This document shows positions 1 to 7,096 of a stretch of DNA of 64,000 nt, in pieces. The position numbers were made by a program, and so were the translations under genes. Origin of the DNA: Cytophagales bacterium (GTDB lineage: Bacteria; Bacteroidota; Bacteroidia; Cytophagales; Cyclobacteriaceae); assembly GCA_016124425.1 (NCBI GenBank), contig WGNT01000033.1:1-64000 (forward strand), given 5' to 3'. Position 1 is the stretch's first letter, and every line of letters starts with the position of its first letter. The notes under the pieces were generated by a model, which did not search any database, was not told the origin of the DNA, and worked only from the letters and a program-made list of their open reading frames with translations.

Positions 1-33
1 ATAACTTTCCGGATAATTTAACCGGAAAGTTAT
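1..33 (-). terminator. Perfect 12-bp stem-loop at window edge
   Basis: A perfect inverted repeat of 12 bases (1-12 and 22-33) encloses a 9-base AT-rich loop. It lies 32 bases past the stop of the 66-aa membrane protein gene, so it is a likely transcription terminator for that minus-strand pair. The window ends at the stem, so the T-tract expected after it on the minus strand cannot be checked. Confidence 0.6.
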
Positions 34-65: not shown

Positions 66-266
66 TTATTCCTCCGGCTTCTTTTGGAGTTTTTTTACCC
101 CCCATGCGGTAGAAAATGAAACGAACATAGAGAGTACAATTGCCCAATAAAAACCGAAATCTCTCGGGTTTGTAGACCCCAGGGGGTTGGTAATCATTAA
201 TAAATATCCACCAATTGCACCAATAATAAATGAAATTAAATGGGATTTCAAATTATTTGATTTCAT
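66..266 (-). CDS. Small two-helix membrane protein (unknown function)
   Basis: A 66-residue protein that I do not recognise. It has two predicted membrane helices (about residues 8-26 and 37-57) joined by a short Pro/Asn-containing loop, and a basic end (KKLQKK), which suggests both termini face the cytoplasm. Its ATG sits one base after the stop of the upstream lipoprotein gene, so the two are almost certainly co-transcribed and probably translationally coupled. Size, topology and position right after a protein with a glycine-zipper hydrophobic tail would suit an immunity or accessory membrane protein. That role is inference only. A stem-loop follows the stop. Confidence 0.6.
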   Translation of the reverse strand: MKSNNLKSHLISFIIGAIGGYLLMITNPLGSTNPRDFGFYWAIVLSMFVSFSTAWGVKKLQKKPEE

Positions 267-267
267 A

Positions 268-1131
268 TTATCTTCTCCAACATGTTAATAATAACGAACC
301 AGCTATACCTCCAATAGCTCCTTCCACAAAGCCCCCTGCACCTCCAAAAACCGCACCTCCCACACAACCCGTTACTGTCCCAAAACCAAGAAGAAAAATC
401 GATCCTCCGGCACAACCAATCATTGCTCCCCTAACCGCACCAATTCCACCAGTTAAAACAGCACCTGCCCAAACTGCCCTCATATCCACTCTGCACCGTA
501 AATTAGGATTAGTGCCTGCATTCTTGTTCCCTAACCCCAATTCTTCCCCAACCATGTCCATTCCCCCTTTTTCTAAAAAGTCCGCAAGGGCATAAATTCC
601 AGCACCCATTGAATAAAGTTCCAATCGGTCCTCCTCTGATAAATAGGAGCCAGCAAGACCGTTTTGAAATTCCCTGGCAAGATCTTTTACTTTGACATAA
701 TCTTCGGTTTCAAACAGCCTGTCAAGAAAGGTGTTCAATACTTGAAGTTGTTCACTGCTAAATGCCGCCTCCATCGTCTTCTGAAACTCGGGCGAACCAG
801 GATCGAAAATACTATCGTCAAGATAAGCAATATCCGGCCCTCCGGCAAAAAATAATTCGGTATCAAAATCACCTAATTTGAAATACTTACCTTCAAGATG
901 CTTAAAGGTCGTCGCCTGTAACGATCTCCGATCCAAGAACATCCGGCCATTTCCTTCCGATTTCAGATTTTGACTCAGTGAACGCATGGCATTTTCCAGC
1001 CCATCACTATACATCTGCTCCAAACTTTCAGGTGCTTTTGAAAGCTCCAAATCCGGTCGATTCAAATCAACGTCTTCCTGACAAGAAACGAAAAGACACA
1101 GGGCTGACAAAATCAAAACATAGGTTTTCAT
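268..1131 (-). CDS. Lipoprotein with C-terminal glycine-zipper hydrophobic domain
   Basis: A 287-residue protein with a signal peptide ending in a lipobox (FVSC, Cys17), so it should be a lipidated envelope protein. Residues about 30-210 are mostly helical and charged with no motif I recognise. The last 75 residues switch to a Gly/Ala-rich hydrophobic tract with glycine-zipper spacing (GGIGAV, GGAVFGGAGG, GAIGGIAG), four cysteines (RCR, GCAGG, GCVGG, LTCW) and a basic C-terminal RR. Such tails occur in membrane-inserting peptides, including several pore-forming bacteriocins. The 66-aa two-helix gene follows after one base. A toxin role is an inference; a glycine-zipper envelope structural protein is the alternative. 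Confidence 0.65.
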   Translation of the reverse strand: MKTYVLILSALCLFVSCQEDVDLNRPDLELSKAPESLEQMYSDGLENAMRSLSQNLKSEGNGRMFLDRRSLQATTFKHLEGKYFKLGDFDTELFFAGGPDIAYLDDSIFDPGSPEFQKTMEAAFSSEQLQVLNTFLDRLFETEDYVKVKDLAREFQNGLAGSYLSEEDRLELYSMGAGIYALADFLEKGGMDMVGEELGLGNKNAGTNPNLRCRVDMRAVWAGAVLTGGIGAVRGAMIGCAGGSIFLLGFGTVTGCVGGAVFGGAGGFVEGAIGGIAGSLLLTCWRR

Positions 1132-1254: not shown

Positions 1255-1286
1255 CAAAACTATAGAACTACTAAAAACCCGACCAA
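1255..1286 (-). promoter_or_regulatory. Candidate Bacteroidota promoter for the glycine-zipper lipoprotein
   Basis: Read on the minus strand, TTG (1286-1284) is followed after 21 bases by TAGTTTTG (1262-1255), an exact match to the Bacteroidota -7 consensus TAnnTTTG. It would give a leader of about 120 bases for the gene starting at 1131. A 7-bp stem-loop (1232-1238 with 1249-1255) overlaps the predicted start of transcription. Assigned by motif only. Confidence 0.4.
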
Positions 1287-1950: not shown

Positions 1951-4662
1951 CTACTCCCGCGCGATTACCAGGCGGTGGGTGCCGCTTGGCAGCAGCAAGG
2001 CCCGGTAGGGTCCTGCATGATCCTCGGCCACTTGCAGCCTGTCTGCCGATACTTCGCTGCCGTCTGCCCATTCCGCGGGTTCTCCGCTAGCAGGCAGGCG
2101 CAGTTCGGCTTGGGAATTGGCGGGCACCTCCAGTTCCAGTAAGATCCGTTCAGCTTCTTTTTTCCAATGGGACCTGATCCATCCGTAGGGGCCCTCGTGA
2201 CCGGTCGCCACCCAGTCCAAGTCGTTGGCAAAGGAGGGCCGGATCACCACCTGCGCAAATCCCGGCGCCTCCTCGGCTACCTGAATGCCGCCCAGTCCCT
2301 TGTAGAAAAAATCCCCGATGGAGCCAAACATGATATGGTTTCGGGACTGAGAGCCGTCCCAGTTTTGGAAAAGGGTATTGGCACCAAGTTCATCTATCCA
2401 ATATCCCCAGCCGGGAAAGCTGCGCTTGTTGGCCATGGCATACAGGACATCCGTATGCCCATACTCCATCAGAACCGTAATCAGGGCCTTCGTGCCTACC
2501 ACCCCGGCATCGATGTGGCCGTCCTTTGCGGCAATCGCCTGCAGCAGGGCAGCTAAGACACCCGCTTTGTGCTCCTCCGCTACAACCCCGGCAAATAAGG
2601 CAACGGCTTGGGGCGTTTGCCCACCATGGGCATAGCGGTGTGTGGCGGCATCAAAGTACCGCGCGTTAAAGGCCTCGCTGATGGCCTGCGCCAATTGCCT
2701 GTAGCTTTCCTTATCCTGCTCCAGGCCGATAATACCCGCCATCTCCGAAAGCATGCCGGTAAAATAATGGAAAAAGGCCGAGGCCAAAAAAGGTCCATCT
2801 GTTAGGTTTTCCAACTGCTTGTGATCGTCAATCCCGAAATTCAACAGCAGCTTATCGGAATGCACATGCAGGTAGTCCACATACTTTTTCATATAGGGGT
2901 AATACTTTCGAATGATGGAGGTATCCCCCGTAAATCGGTACAGTTGCCAGGGAATCTCCATAAAGGCCCCCTCCCACTGCGGGCCATAGCCCCTTTCATT
3001 ATTTTCCCCCTTCCCGTAGGTATACCCCCATCCACTGCTGGGGATAATGCCGGGAAGGTCGCCGCTTTCCTGCTGTTCGTCCACGTAATCGTCCAGCCAC
3101 TTCAGGTAGGCCCGGGTCATGTCAAAATTAAACTGCCCGGTCTCCGCCACCAACAGCGCATCGCCGGTCCAACCCATCTTTTCCCGATGCGGGCAGTCCG
3201 TGGGGTAACCGTGGTAATTGCCTAGAAAGGACCATTTCAGGTTCTCCTGCACCTTGTTGAGCATTTCGTTGGAACTCCGGAAATAGCCCCGTTCCTGCAA
3301 GTCGGTATGGACCACCTGCCCTACAAGCTGCACCACCTCCACATCAGGATTGCTGATGCGTACTTCGATGTATTGAAACCCGTGGTAGGTAAAGACGGGG
3401 TGCCATTCCTCAATTCCCTCTCCCTGCAAGATATAGCGGTCAGTCTGCGTATCACCCGTCCATATAAAGCGGCTTAGTTCCTTCACGTCGAGGGTGCTGT
3501 CCGGGTAAATGCGCTCTCCGTATCGCAGCGTCACTTGGCTACCGGGCGGGCCGCTTACCTTGATTTTTGCCCATCCCGTGATGTTTTGCCCCAAGTCCAC
3601 CATTTGTACCGTATCGTTTACTGACCAAGTTGACACCGGATCAAGCTCCGCTACTACCCGAATGGGAGGCATTACCTGTGCCGCCATCGTTCCCGTGGGT
3701 CCGGGAACCACTAGCGCGGGCTTCCAGTCCGCATCATCGTAGGAGAAAAGCGTCCAATCGCCAAGTTCCTTGCGGGCGTCATAGGTTTCCCCGTTGTGGA
3801 TGCTGTTAAACACGATGGGGCCATCCGTAAATGTCCAACTGTCATCAGACGCGATTATTTGCTCGTTGCCTTCTTTGTCGCTTACAAGCAGCTGGCAACG
3901 GAGACTGGGAGATTCCCTCCATGGGGCTTGGTCAAAATCCCAGGCCTCTCTAGTGTGTTGATTGTACCACCCGTTTCCAAGGACTACGCCCAGGGCATTT
4001 TCGGTAGGCTGAAGCATATCTGTCACATCATGAACCGTATAATTCACCCGCTTATCATACCGCGTAAGTGCCGGATCGAGCACATGGTCCCCTACTTTTT
4101 CTCCGTTTATATAGACCTCATGGTAGCCTATACCGGAAATATAGAGACGTGCGGAATGGACAGGTTGATCAAGCGTGAAAGACGTTCGAAAGTGAGGTGC
4201 CGGCAGCACAGGAGGAACAGAATCGGCAGGAGGAACGTGGGAAATCCATTGCCCTTTCCAATCTGCCGCTTCCAACAAGCCGGTTTCCCACCAAGATGCC
4301 TCACTAGTGGCGGTCTCACCGCTTTCACTCCATACCTGAACCGTCCAATAGGCTCGTTCTGAGGATGCCAAGGGAGTTCCCTCATAGGCAAGATGGGTGG
4401 ACTGCCCCGAAGGAATTCTGCCGGAATCCCAAAGGTCCGCCTCTCCGCTGCGGATTTTTTCGTAGCTACTTGCTACCTTTAGCTGATAGGCGGCCTGTTT
4501 GAAGGGGGTTGACCCGCTGACCTGCCAGCTAAACCGCGGCTTTTCTTCTAGCCCAAGTGGACGGTCTATATGGTTGGTTTTGAGGTTTTGGATGCTAAAG
4601 GGCGCCTTTGGGGCACAGGAAAAACTGAGACAGCCGAGTAGGAAGAGGTAAAGGTATTGCAT
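1951..4662 (-). CDS. GH78 alpha-L-rhamnosidase lipoprotein
   Basis: A 903-residue family GH78 enzyme, releasing terminal alpha-L-rhamnose. It has a lipobox (SFSC, Cys16), an N-terminal Ig-like domain (about 20-130), the rhamnosidase N-terminal lectin-like domain (about 160-320), a beta-sandwich, the (alpha/alpha)6 catalytic barrel (about 450-790) and a C-terminal beta domain. The acid cluster Asp489/Glu494/Asp501 (DCPHREKMGWTGD) has the same spacing as Asp567/Glu572/Asp579 of Bacillus RhaB, so Glu494 is the likely general acid. The expected general base, Glu in the TLWExWDG motif (Glu841 in RhaB), is Gln766 here (TLFQNWDG, codon CAA at 2365-2367). That may alter or abolish activity. Context suggests action on a rhamnose-containing sulfated glycan. 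Confidence 0.92.
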   Translation of the reverse strand: MQYLYLFLLGCLSFSCAPKAPFSIQNLKTNHIDRPLGLEEKPRFSWQVSGSTPFKQAAYQLKVASSYEKIRSGEADLWDSGRIPSGQSTHLAYEGTPLASSERAYWTVQVWSESGETATSEASWWETGLLEAADWKGQWISHVPPADSVPPVLPAPHFRTSFTLDQPVHSARLYISGIGYHEVYINGEKVGDHVLDPALTRYDKRVNYTVHDVTDMLQPTENALGVVLGNGWYNQHTREAWDFDQAPWRESPSLRCQLLVSDKEGNEQIIASDDSWTFTDGPIVFNSIHNGETYDARKELGDWTLFSYDDADWKPALVVPGPTGTMAAQVMPPIRVVAELDPVSTWSVNDTVQMVDLGQNITGWAKIKVSGPPGSQVTLRYGERIYPDSTLDVKELSRFIWTGDTQTDRYILQGEGIEEWHPVFTYHGFQYIEVRISNPDVEVVQLVGQVVHTDLQERGYFRSSNEMLNKVQENLKWSFLGNYHGYPTDCPHREKMGWTGDALLVAETGQFNFDMTRAYLKWLDDYVDEQQESGDLPGIIPSSGWGYTYGKGENNERGYGPQWEGAFMEIPWQLYRFTGDTSIIRKYYPYMKKYVDYLHVHSDKLLLNFGIDDHKQLENLTDGPFLASAFFHYFTGMLSEMAGIIGLEQDKESYRQLAQAISEAFNARYFDAATHRYAHGGQTPQAVALFAGVVAEEHKAGVLAALLQAIAAKDGHIDAGVVGTKALITVLMEYGHTDVLYAMANKRSFPGWGYWIDELGANTLFQNWDGSQSRNHIMFGSIGDFFYKGLGGIQVAEEAPGFAQVVIRPSFANDLDWVATGHEGPYGWIRSHWKKEAERILLELEVPANSQAELRLPASGEPAEWADGSEVSADRLQVAEDHAGPYRALLLPSGTHRLVIARE

Positions 4663-4861
4663 CTATTAGTATATTATTTTTCGATGGTCATTTATTTTTG
4701 CCTTATAAAAGGGGCTAATATAGTAGAAGCCAGGAGCATCTCCCAAGGCCTATCAACCCCCTTAGATTGGATCTCAACGTCATTTTAGAGGTTTTTCTTT
4801 TTGGTTTTAGGAGAGTAGCCTGCATCGCGGGGTAGTAATTCCCGTGCAGAATAGTCCCCTG

Positions 4862-7096
4862 CTATTCCTCCTTTTTGGTCGACATAACATACCGGTGTTC
4901 CCCGGCGATATGCACAAAGGGTTCGTATTTGTTTAGCCACCACATTTCTTTATCCGGCATGGGAACGATAGCTATGCCCCCTACATGCGAGGGACGTTCA
5001 GGGGCAGCGGGCTGCATCGACAGGTTGTCCAAGTAGATACCGAATGGTTGGGAGTCCCCATCGTTGATATGCCAGGTACCCAGATTTACGACCAACCTGT
5101 CCAATCCCAGCACGGATAGGTTCTCCTGTTTGGCTTTATAATCCTTAGTCCAGTTTAAGACCGCCGATTGCCATTGGTCCGGCGGTGCCGGAAGCTGCAT
5201 GTGTACAAAAGGAACCTCTTTGTTATCGGTGAATTTATCTGCCAGCATGGATGTGCCTTTACCCACCCAATAGGCCATGTTAAGCAATTTGGTGCTTCCA
5301 TTAAACCCTTCCAACCAAATAAACCCACCGGCCCAGCCCTTGCTGTCGGTAACCATGGCATCCACGCAGTAATCCAGGTGAATTGCCGCATTGGTCTGCG
5401 GTTCCAGCGTAACCGCCTGGCAGAGGTGGTTGATGGTCTGCGGCAGCCTGTCCTGACCGGGAATATGGTAGTCGCGCTTTCTGGAATAAAGGTAAAGGGC
5501 GGAGTCACTGTCCCGCCCGGGCGTTTTTCGCACGTCCATCATATTTGAAGCGCGTTCATCTTCCATGTATACAAATCTTTTTGACCAGTGTGCCAACCCT
5601 TCCTCAAAACTACCGTTTTTGATTTGCTTAGCCGCCGGGAGCTGCCATTTATAGGTAAGCCATAGGGGGTACTGCGCTTCGCGGAAAGGAGGCAGCTTGT
5701 CCGGATAGGGGTAGATTTCCTCCGTGACTGTCTTGAAATAACAGCGGGCCTTATCCCCCTCGATGTCCAAGACTAAGATCCCTTGTGATGGCCCCCCATG
5801 CCATTCTTCTTCCCCAAAGGCCCGTGGACGGTAGCCTGCTGCTGGTAGGTTGATCATGTTCATTCCTTTGAATTCCACCGCAGTTTTAAAGGAGGCTTTA
5901 ATCGGGATATGTACGTGACCGCTGAAAATGTATTTTACGTTTCCCTGTTTTGCAAGTATATCCAACAGCTGTCGTTTCACGGCAACCGACTCGGCATAAT
6001 TGATCAGGGGGTCGATACCTATTGGGTGCATGGGCACGTGCTGCATAAACACCACCGGGGAATCACGTTGCTTTTCCAAGTCCCGCTCCAGCCAATCGAA
6101 ATAATGGGGATGGGTCTCAAAGAAATTATTTCGTAACGGATCAGGCCATACGATGAAGTGCCATTTGCCCAGGTTAAAGCTATACAGCAGCAGGTCCATC
6201 CCATTCATCGCCTTTTGGGCGGCAAAATAGTTGTCGAATTCAGCCATGTTGTACCCGGGGGTAAACTTGGCCTGATAGATCGTTTCGTGATTGCCAATGG
6301 CGTACAAAAGCGGCGACTTTATCCGCTTTAGGTAGCTGTGCATGGCCTCGAAATGTTGCTTTTCCCCCTGATTGTCCACCACATCTCCCAGAATCAGGGT
6401 GAACGCGGGCTGTGGGTCCAACTCATTTACCCGCTTGATGCTGTCTTCGCAGAAGGCGTTGTGGATTTTCATGCGGGTAGGATGGGCTTTGGGCGTCTCC
6501 GGGTTGCCGCCTTGGGTATCTGCCAAGATCGCAATGGAAAACGAATCGCCTACTGTAGGTAGGGGAAGGTCCTTGGGATTTAATTCCCCGATCTCCTTGT
6601 CCAAAAGGTAGTTGCACGAGATCATCAGGTCCTTGACCTGAAAGTCAATTTGTTCCTGCTTGATCAGTTCTTCTAGGTTGAAACGTCGCTCGGTCCCGTT
6701 GACCGTGAGGATGACCGCGGATGTTGCCGATGGTTCGTCAATCCAGGCAGCGATTACAACGGGGTAATTTTTTGTTACAAAAAGATCAGCTACTTGGGTT
6801 TTTGGATCGAATTTTCCCGGAGTGTTTGCAAAATAATAGGGTTTGATGCGATTGAACGCCGCGTTGGTTACCTGCATACCTACCTTTACAGCCTGAGGTA
6901 CAAGCCCATCAACCGCACTGAGCGCGACACGCAGCATCACCTGTCCTTCCCGGTTGAGTACTTCCGCAAGGCTTTCCGGCTTCGGGTAGGAAAACCGGGG
7001 TATACGCTCATTGCCAACAGGCCGAAATGGGATAGCCCCCATGGCAAAGGCGGAACTTCCCGCACTGATTTTTTCTAAAAATGATCTTCGTTTCAT
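4862..7096 (-). CDS. Secreted calcineurin-like metallophosphoesterase
   Basis: A 744-residue phosphoesterase. The N-terminus (MKRRSFLEK...) has a Tat-like twin-arginine start and a hydrophobic segment, so export is likely. After an N-terminal beta domain (about 40-180), the dimetal phosphoesterase core (about 185-450) shows the full motif series: ILADTQ, GDVVDNQ, GNHE, MQHVPMH and SGHVHIP. A C-terminal jelly-roll-like region (about 490-700) follows. It lies 6 bases after the glycosidase at 7103-8647, so it is in the same transcript. Metallophosphoesterases recur in sulfated-glycan loci, but their substrate there is not settled; phosphate or sulfate ester cleavage are both possible. Confidence 0.85.
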   Translation of the reverse strand: MKRRSFLEKISAGSSAFAMGAIPFRPVGNERIPRFSYPKPESLAEVLNREGQVMLRVALSAVDGLVPQAVKVGMQVTNAAFNRIKPYYFANTPGKFDPKTQVADLFVTKNYPVVIAAWIDEPSATSAVILTVNGTERRFNLEELIKQEQIDFQVKDLMISCNYLLDKEIGELNPKDLPLPTVGDSFSIAILADTQGGNPETPKAHPTRMKIHNAFCEDSIKRVNELDPQPAFTLILGDVVDNQGEKQHFEAMHSYLKRIKSPLLYAIGNHETIYQAKFTPGYNMAEFDNYFAAQKAMNGMDLLLYSFNLGKWHFIVWPDPLRNNFFETHPHYFDWLERDLEKQRDSPVVFMQHVPMHPIGIDPLINYAESVAVKRQLLDILAKQGNVKYIFSGHVHIPIKASFKTAVEFKGMNMINLPAAGYRPRAFGEEEWHGGPSQGILVLDIEGDKARCYFKTVTEEIYPYPDKLPPFREAQYPLWLTYKWQLPAAKQIKNGSFEEGLAHWSKRFVYMEDERASNMMDVRKTPGRDSDSALYLYSRKRDYHIPGQDRLPQTINHLCQAVTLEPQTNAAIHLDYCVDAMVTDSKGWAGGFIWLEGFNGSTKLLNMAYWVGKGTSMLADKFTDNKEVPFVHMQLPAPPDQWQSAVLNWTKDYKAKQENLSVLGLDRLVVNLGTWHINDGDSQPFGIYLDNLSMQPAAPERPSHVGGIAIVPMPDKEMWWLNKYEPFVHIAGEHRYVMSTKKEE

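Follow-up and report, generated by a model that had tools for sequence, protein, structure and literature searches.

The two genes at the start of the stretch of DNA analyzed here (positions 1 to 64,000 of contig WGNT01000033.1 of a Cytophagales bacterium; 64,000 nucleotides, hereafter the window) are likely to form a two-gene antibacterial module, in which a lipid-anchored, surface-displayed, membrane-permeabilising bacteriocin would be encoded together with a cognate inner-membrane immunity protein. The original prediction had read the pair as a surface-anchored toxin with its immunity protein, and comparison of related loci strongly supports this reading at the sequence level, through gene pairing, cysteine covariation, banks and orphans of immunity genes, and the matching of subtypes. 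The pair had been linked to no named system, and searches of both proteins against Pfam and NCBIfam likewise returned nothing above cut-off.

The gene pair and its surroundings

The larger gene encodes a 287-aa protein, as originally described, with a signal peptide that ends in FVS and the residues CQEDVD from the lipidated cysteine onward; from this sequence the protein is predicted to be lipidated on Cys17 (Table 1). The acidic stretch after this cysteine is predicted to direct surface export, since it resembles the signal defined for export of Bacteroidetes lipoproteins to the cell surface (PMC5080379). In the family described below, the seven residues that follow the lipidated cysteine contain on average 2.46 acidic and 0.04 basic residues. 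The toxin was modeled with AlphaFold2 from seven sequences (pTM 0.77); its N-terminal domain is helical in the model, with a pLDDT of 49–93 by block, mostly 74–93, and no solved structure resembled the model above background.

The 66-aa ORF starts one base past the stop of the 287-aa ORF on the same strand, and AlphaFold2 places its two helices at residues 4–26 and 37–61, in agreement with the two-helix membrane protein that had been proposed. Following the positive-inside rule, both basic ends of this partner are probably cytoplasmic. The strong stem-loop thought to close the unit was recovered as well (-16 kcal/mol, z -3.3) and sits at the extreme end of the contig, as the window starts at its first base (G000:C55).

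Carbohydrate-degradation genes surround the pair, and the nine window ORFs upstream of it include no transporter or exporter. Near the homologs no recurrent exporter was found, and the sole recurring neighbors represent family-specific synteny. In three genomes, window-type toxin loci have phosphoesterase and GH78 rhamnosidase genes on their upstream side (window 1951–7096, minus strand; L047 and L048), so that the toxin lies at the margin of a rhamnogalacturonan/sulfatase utilisation region.

Table 1. Predicted features of the gene pair, in window coordinates.
Feature	Position	Strand	Basis or remarks
Lipoprotein toxin gene (predicted)	268..1131	-	287-aa ORF; 27-member tail family in Cyclobacteriaceae
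Lipoprotein-type signal peptide, aa 1-16 (MKTYVLILSALCLFVS)	1084..1131	-	Lipobox recognised in 24/36 homologous frames
Lipidated Cys17 and acidic QEDVD (predicted lipidation)	1066..1083	-	Resembles Bacteroidetes lipoprotein surface-export signal (PMC5080379)
Variable all-helical N-terminal domain, aa 30-201	529..1044	-	AlphaFold2; 22% mean identity
Flexible linker, aa 202-212; possible cleavage region	496..528	-	AlphaFold2 pLDDT <50
Glycine-zipper tail, aa 213-287; cysteines 213/284 and 240/256	271..495	-	Sequence, family alignment
Tail helix 1, aa 217-240	412..483	-	AlphaFold2
Hinge, aa 241-254; family motif FPxxGT	370..411	-	Alignment and AlphaFold2
Tail helix 2, aa 255-285	277..369	-	AlphaFold2
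Predicted immunity protein, 66 aa, two-helix inner-membrane hairpin, basic ends	66..266	-	Homologs at tails; AlphaFold2
Terminator-like 12-bp stem-loop 3' of immunity gene	1..33	-	Folding energy
Candidate Bacteroidota -7 promoter element TAnnTTTG, TAGTTTTG	1255..1262	-	Pattern only; weak

Distribution of the family and pairing of the genes

A scan of genome contigs with the single sequence found no relatives; these were recovered when an alignment was used. In a profile search of 295 Cyclobacteriaceae genomes, the toxin profile matched 37, and the match was strong (E at most 1e-20) in 24. The family is therefore patchy in the Cyclobacteriaceae, with carriers that include Lunatimonas lonarensis, Lunatibacter salilacus, a Cyclobacterium and two MAGs. 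No matches were obtained among the plasmids and viral contigs searched. Tail matches at the level of the phylum (L082–L084, L086, and L087) were rejected as unrelated Gly-rich proteins.

For further comparison, 27 tail genes from 22 genomes were aligned. In 24 of these the tail is exactly 74 residues long when the first Cys and the closing CxR are taken as its ends, and a homologous two-helix gene, identified with an HMM of the small protein, overlaps or directly trails all 27, which bears out the co-occurrence that the original prediction had called for. An immunity homolog was present in 23 of the 24 genomes that carry a strong toxin match vs. 15 of the 271 other genomes. Each locus contains one toxin gene, save a tandem of two in G205 (contig C92); the same contig carries a 128-aa ORF in which two immunity units are fused (L060 7998–8387, coordinates with the toxin on the plus strand). 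Another immunity protein (L066, 3590–4075) has an extra C-terminal domain of approximately 90 residues that appears GRAM/PH-like by eye.

Seven more distant glycine-zipper lipoproteins (L068, L071, L072, L074, L075, L081, and L085) also have a small two-helix ORF immediately downstream of them, and these ORFs have no detectable relation to the partner of the family.

The tail as a predicted disulfide-clamped hairpin

The Gly/Ala-rich hydrophobic tract at the C-terminus, described earlier as having four cysteines and a basic end, comprises 75 residues in the window protein, with 21 Gly, 10 Ala, cysteines at 213, 240, 256, and 284, and the ending WRR. It contains 10 GxxxG motifs vs. 5.4 in shuffled sequences (p 0.009), a spacing above that given by composition, and the family mean is 9.15 vs. 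3.8. AlphaFold2 models the tail as a two-helix hairpin (blocks with pLDDT 60–85). At the hinge (370–411, minus strand), the window's own tail has a Leu at the position where the Pro of the family motif FPxxGT is near-invariant. A subset of the toxins (L043, L060–L065) carries an extra cysteine-containing C-terminal domain of 40–55 residues beyond the hairpin.

Two cysteines mark the ends of the aligned tails, Cys1 (26/27) and Cys72 (27/27). Cys44 is found in 16 of the 27, alongside Cys28 in nine and Cys24, one helical turn away from position 28, in seven; the 11 tails that lack Cys44 have neither. This rule, by which Cys44 and one of Cys24 and Cys28 are either both present or both absent, holds in 27/27 tails, with approximately five changes on the best tree and just one independent pair on well-supported branches, so that a phylogenetic sign test for the covariation cannot reach significance. 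The pattern is that expected from a second inter-helix disulfide, and together with the model suggests that disulfides clamp the two tail helices into a hairpin of the kind known from gallocin-A-type bacteriocins.

Glycine zippers are also common in SlyB- and YiaD-like proteins, and the best sequence match in the structural database was SlyB, but at an E of 2.6; profiles of SlyB/YiaD glycine-zipper lipoproteins did not match. We consider it extremely unlikely that the pair represents a housekeeping outer-membrane lipoprotein of this kind with a small membrane partner, as such an explanation has to contend with the cysteine pairing, the C-terminal position of the tail away from the lipid anchor, the sporadic presence of the family (24/295), its pseudogenes, its polymorphic partner arrays and the lack of recurrent housekeeping neighbors.

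A further question is whether the tail acts while attached to its lipoprotein. If the lipoprotein part were a mere carrier, the tail could be cut off at the linker to yield a free, diffusible bacteriocin, comparable to Fab1 of Bacteroides fragilis, which is freed from its precursor by fragipain (PMC8406203). The AlphaFold2 model has a low-confidence linker immediately N-terminal of the tail, and a short motif ending in Gly-Cys precedes most tails, both of which are compatible with cleavage. However, there is no strictly conserved cleavage motif, cutting at Arg6 of the tail, which is invariant in the family, would remove the conserved Cys1, and some toxins continue into a further C-terminal domain (about 40–55 residues). 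In addition, a fragipain-type (C11) peptidase (PF03415) was not found in the window's genome (G000, 88.6% complete), which leaves a fragipain route as for Fab1 unsupported. A tail that acts as a free bacteriocin is a possible but rather unlikely variant of the toxin/immunity explanation.

Immunity subtypes follow toxin subtypes

The N-terminal domain had been expected to vary while the tail is conserved, and mean identity was indeed 22% for the N-terminal regions and 55% for the tails, with 29% for the immunity proteins. Distances between tails correlated with those between immunity proteins (Mantel r 0.77) more than did those between N-terminal regions (0.63), and in partial Mantel tests the tail-immunity correlation was 0.62 given the N-terminal domain vs. 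0.31 for the N-terminal region; as these are distance correlations among related sequences, p-values were not taken as a measure of strength.

When the three cysteine subtypes of the toxin (C28, C24 and two-cysteine) were mapped onto the immunity tree, three changes were required vs. 12.9 for shuffled subtypes. Five genomes (G001, G175, G232, G275, and G296) contain two loci of different type each, and at every one of these loci the immunity gene is of the type that matches the adjacent toxin, which provides an internal control for species relatedness. The immunity subtype at each locus goes with the toxin subtype there, also where a single genome has more than one locus.

Banks, orphans and remnants

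In several genomes a single intact toxin gene is surrounded by divergent immunity paralogs: four in G032, seven in G133 and nine in G175 (L. lonarensis). An array of four immunity genes in G019 is toxin-free, and solitary orphan immunity genes are common, in many genomes with no trace of a toxin nearby. The genome of the window itself has an orphan on another contig (L108; G000:C191:31546-31758), which lies near a vapBC-like toxin-antitoxin pair. Many orphans group, in the tree of immunity proteins, with the partners of other toxin subtypes; the orphan of the window's genome clusters with partners of C24 tails, for example that of L. salilacus, and L. lonarensis has a window-type orphan beside its own C24 toxin. 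Toxin remnants of 27–29 residues were observed beside an intact immunity gene in G211 and G274. At one further locus (L070, G105:C12:295619-295807), a deletion has removed the second half of a window-type tail together with the first half of its immunity protein, so that the remaining pieces form one continuous reading frame.

Mixed stocks of immunity genes are a known trait of competition with antibacterial toxins (e.g., PMC3482391). They are hard to explain by a housekeeping function or by a self-acting module. In the latter case, a toxin-antitoxin or abortive-infection system, the tail would kill its producer unless the two-helix protein is present, which fits the tight pairing of the genes, the toxin remnants beside intact partners and the vapBC-like pair near the orphan of the window's genome. 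It leaves unexplained the toxin-free orphans in many genomes, the banks in which a single toxin has as many as nine divergent partners and the partners of other subtypes, and the signal resembling that for surface export points outward; we regard this alternative as very improbable.

Comparison with known systems

Halocin C8, which was also considered for comparison, has a precursor that combines an immunity portion with a bacteriocin at its C-terminus. Gallocin A consists of two disulfide-clamped hairpin peptides that permeabilise vesicles (PMC10100652). As in gallocin A, brochocin C and thermophilin 13 (class IIb; PMC10100652), the family has a small, here predicted, disulfide-clamped hairpin, in whose two-helix model the cysteines close to either end face one another and would form the bond, and a small hairpin-like immunity protein encoded adjacent to it. 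In these bacteriocins two free peptides carry double-glycine leaders and rely on an ABC exporter, whereas in the present family the hairpin forms a single C-terminal domain of a lipoprotein; two complementary peptides are not encoded, given one toxin gene per locus with the exception of the G205 tandem. Compared with double-glycine class II bacteriocins (PF10439), the toxin has a lipoprotein signal instead of a short leader, and no C39 ABC exporter was found among the upstream ORFs of the window or as a recurrent neighbor of the homologs.

The window tail itself matched no bacteriocin model. The tail of the distant lipoprotein L075 gave a weak match to Pfam Bacteriocin_IIc (PF10439; E 3.8e-4, 20.8 bits vs. 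a cut-off of 27.1) and aligned to the family profile with a probability of 86%, a bridge of low-complexity sequence for which convergence is possible. The tails of L071 and L075 (SWWDSWGKC... and GWWDSWGKC...) recall cerein-7B-like class II bacteriocins. As a bridge to known bacteriocins PF10439 was rejected: its Bacteroidota matches are mostly ordinary double-glycine peptides, plus one YiaD-type lipoprotein, and none has the lipoprotein-hairpin architecture.

Among toxins of Gram-negative bacteria, Cdz of Caulobacter (PMC5380434) similarly combines glycine zippers and display on the outer membrane of the producer, predicted for our family, with an adjoining small membrane immunity protein. 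It differs in having two toxins of 84–86 aa that leave the cell through a type I secretion system encoded next to them (PMC5380434); no cdzAB-type I secretion genes were found near the family loci, where there is no recurrent neighbor family and where the neighbors in the window are carbohydrate genes. SitA of myxobacteria (PMC5562445) is itself a lipoprotein of the outer membrane that carries its toxic domain at the C-terminus, with a downstream cognate immunity gene and no dedicated exporter, an organization that our family shares as judged from gene arrangement and lipobox. The studied SitA tails, in contrast, are nuclease-like, act in the cytoplasm and depend on TraA-mediated outer-membrane exchange, whereas here a membrane-active hairpin and a membrane immunity protein are predicted; a recurrent upstream gene comparable to the SitA partner sitB was not seen at the family loci.

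The polymorphic, membrane-active C-terminal domain, the variable domain adjacent to it and the cognate pairing resemble CDI ionophore toxins and CdiI, and CdiI is likewise a two-helix hairpin with cytoplasmic ends (PMC11630599), as is probable for the partner described here. CDI ionophores are five-helix toxins on a giant CdiA with CdiB, to which we saw no sequence relation, and the 287-aa toxin has a lipoprotein signal in place of CdiA/CdiB two-partner secretion. Within the Bacteroidota, Fab1/RFab1 of B. fragilis shares the precursor, the downstream immunity gene and the orphan immunity genes in other strains, and differs in its size (50 kDa), in the 28-kDa fragment released by fragipain and in that no glycine-zipper tail has been reported (PMC8406203). 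DAG-RiPPs (PMC12636315) are another Bacteroidota peptide product made via the lipoprotein pathway and, unlike the present family, need modifying enzymes.

By analogy, the module may work like a gallocin-type hairpin bacteriocin that is shown on the surface as in Cdz or SitA, while being a member of neither class. It appears to fall outside all of the classes compared here, since it has no double-glycine leader and exporter, no CdzAB, no CdiA/B and no sequence match. Within the literature covered, which excludes most subscription papers, we found no description of this lipoprotein-hairpin family. The parts have precedents; their combination, a lipid-anchored hairpin bacteriocin with spare immunity banks, does not seem to have been described.

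A model for the module and its implications

In the preferred reading, the antibacterial module with cognate immunity, the toxin would be made with a lipoprotein signal and lipidated on Cys17, and the acidic export signal would place it on the exterior of the outer membrane or in vesicles. The variable helical N-terminal domain may hold or target the toxin, perhaps via a receptor on the rival cell. The tail of 74–75 residues is predicted, with the covariation behind it, to be a GxxxG-packed two-helix hairpin with one or two disulfides. Either when a related cell is contacted or once it has been freed by cutting at the flexible linker, the hairpin would enter the inner membrane of the target and permeabilise it, as gallocin A and CDI ionophores lead us to expect. 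The 66-aa two-helix partner in the inner membrane would block the tail subtype to which it is matched, and the extra immunity genes of other subtypes in relatives would counter other toxin variants.

More tentatively, and with somewhat less than even confidence, the window family, the cerein-like L071/L075 and the distant L081/L085 could belong to a phylum-wide Bacteroidota class of different membrane-active hairpins grafted onto surface lipoproteins, delivered by contact or in vesicles without a dedicated secretion system and countered by exchangeable banks of two-helix immunity genes. The natural toxin and immunity subtypes, disulfide variants and immunity banks make specificity directly testable. 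Bacteroidota export many lipoproteins to the cell surface, and if the explanation is true, a second, unrelated solution from this phylum would show that a Gram-negative cell can be armed in a simple way, by just two genes and without a secretion machine.
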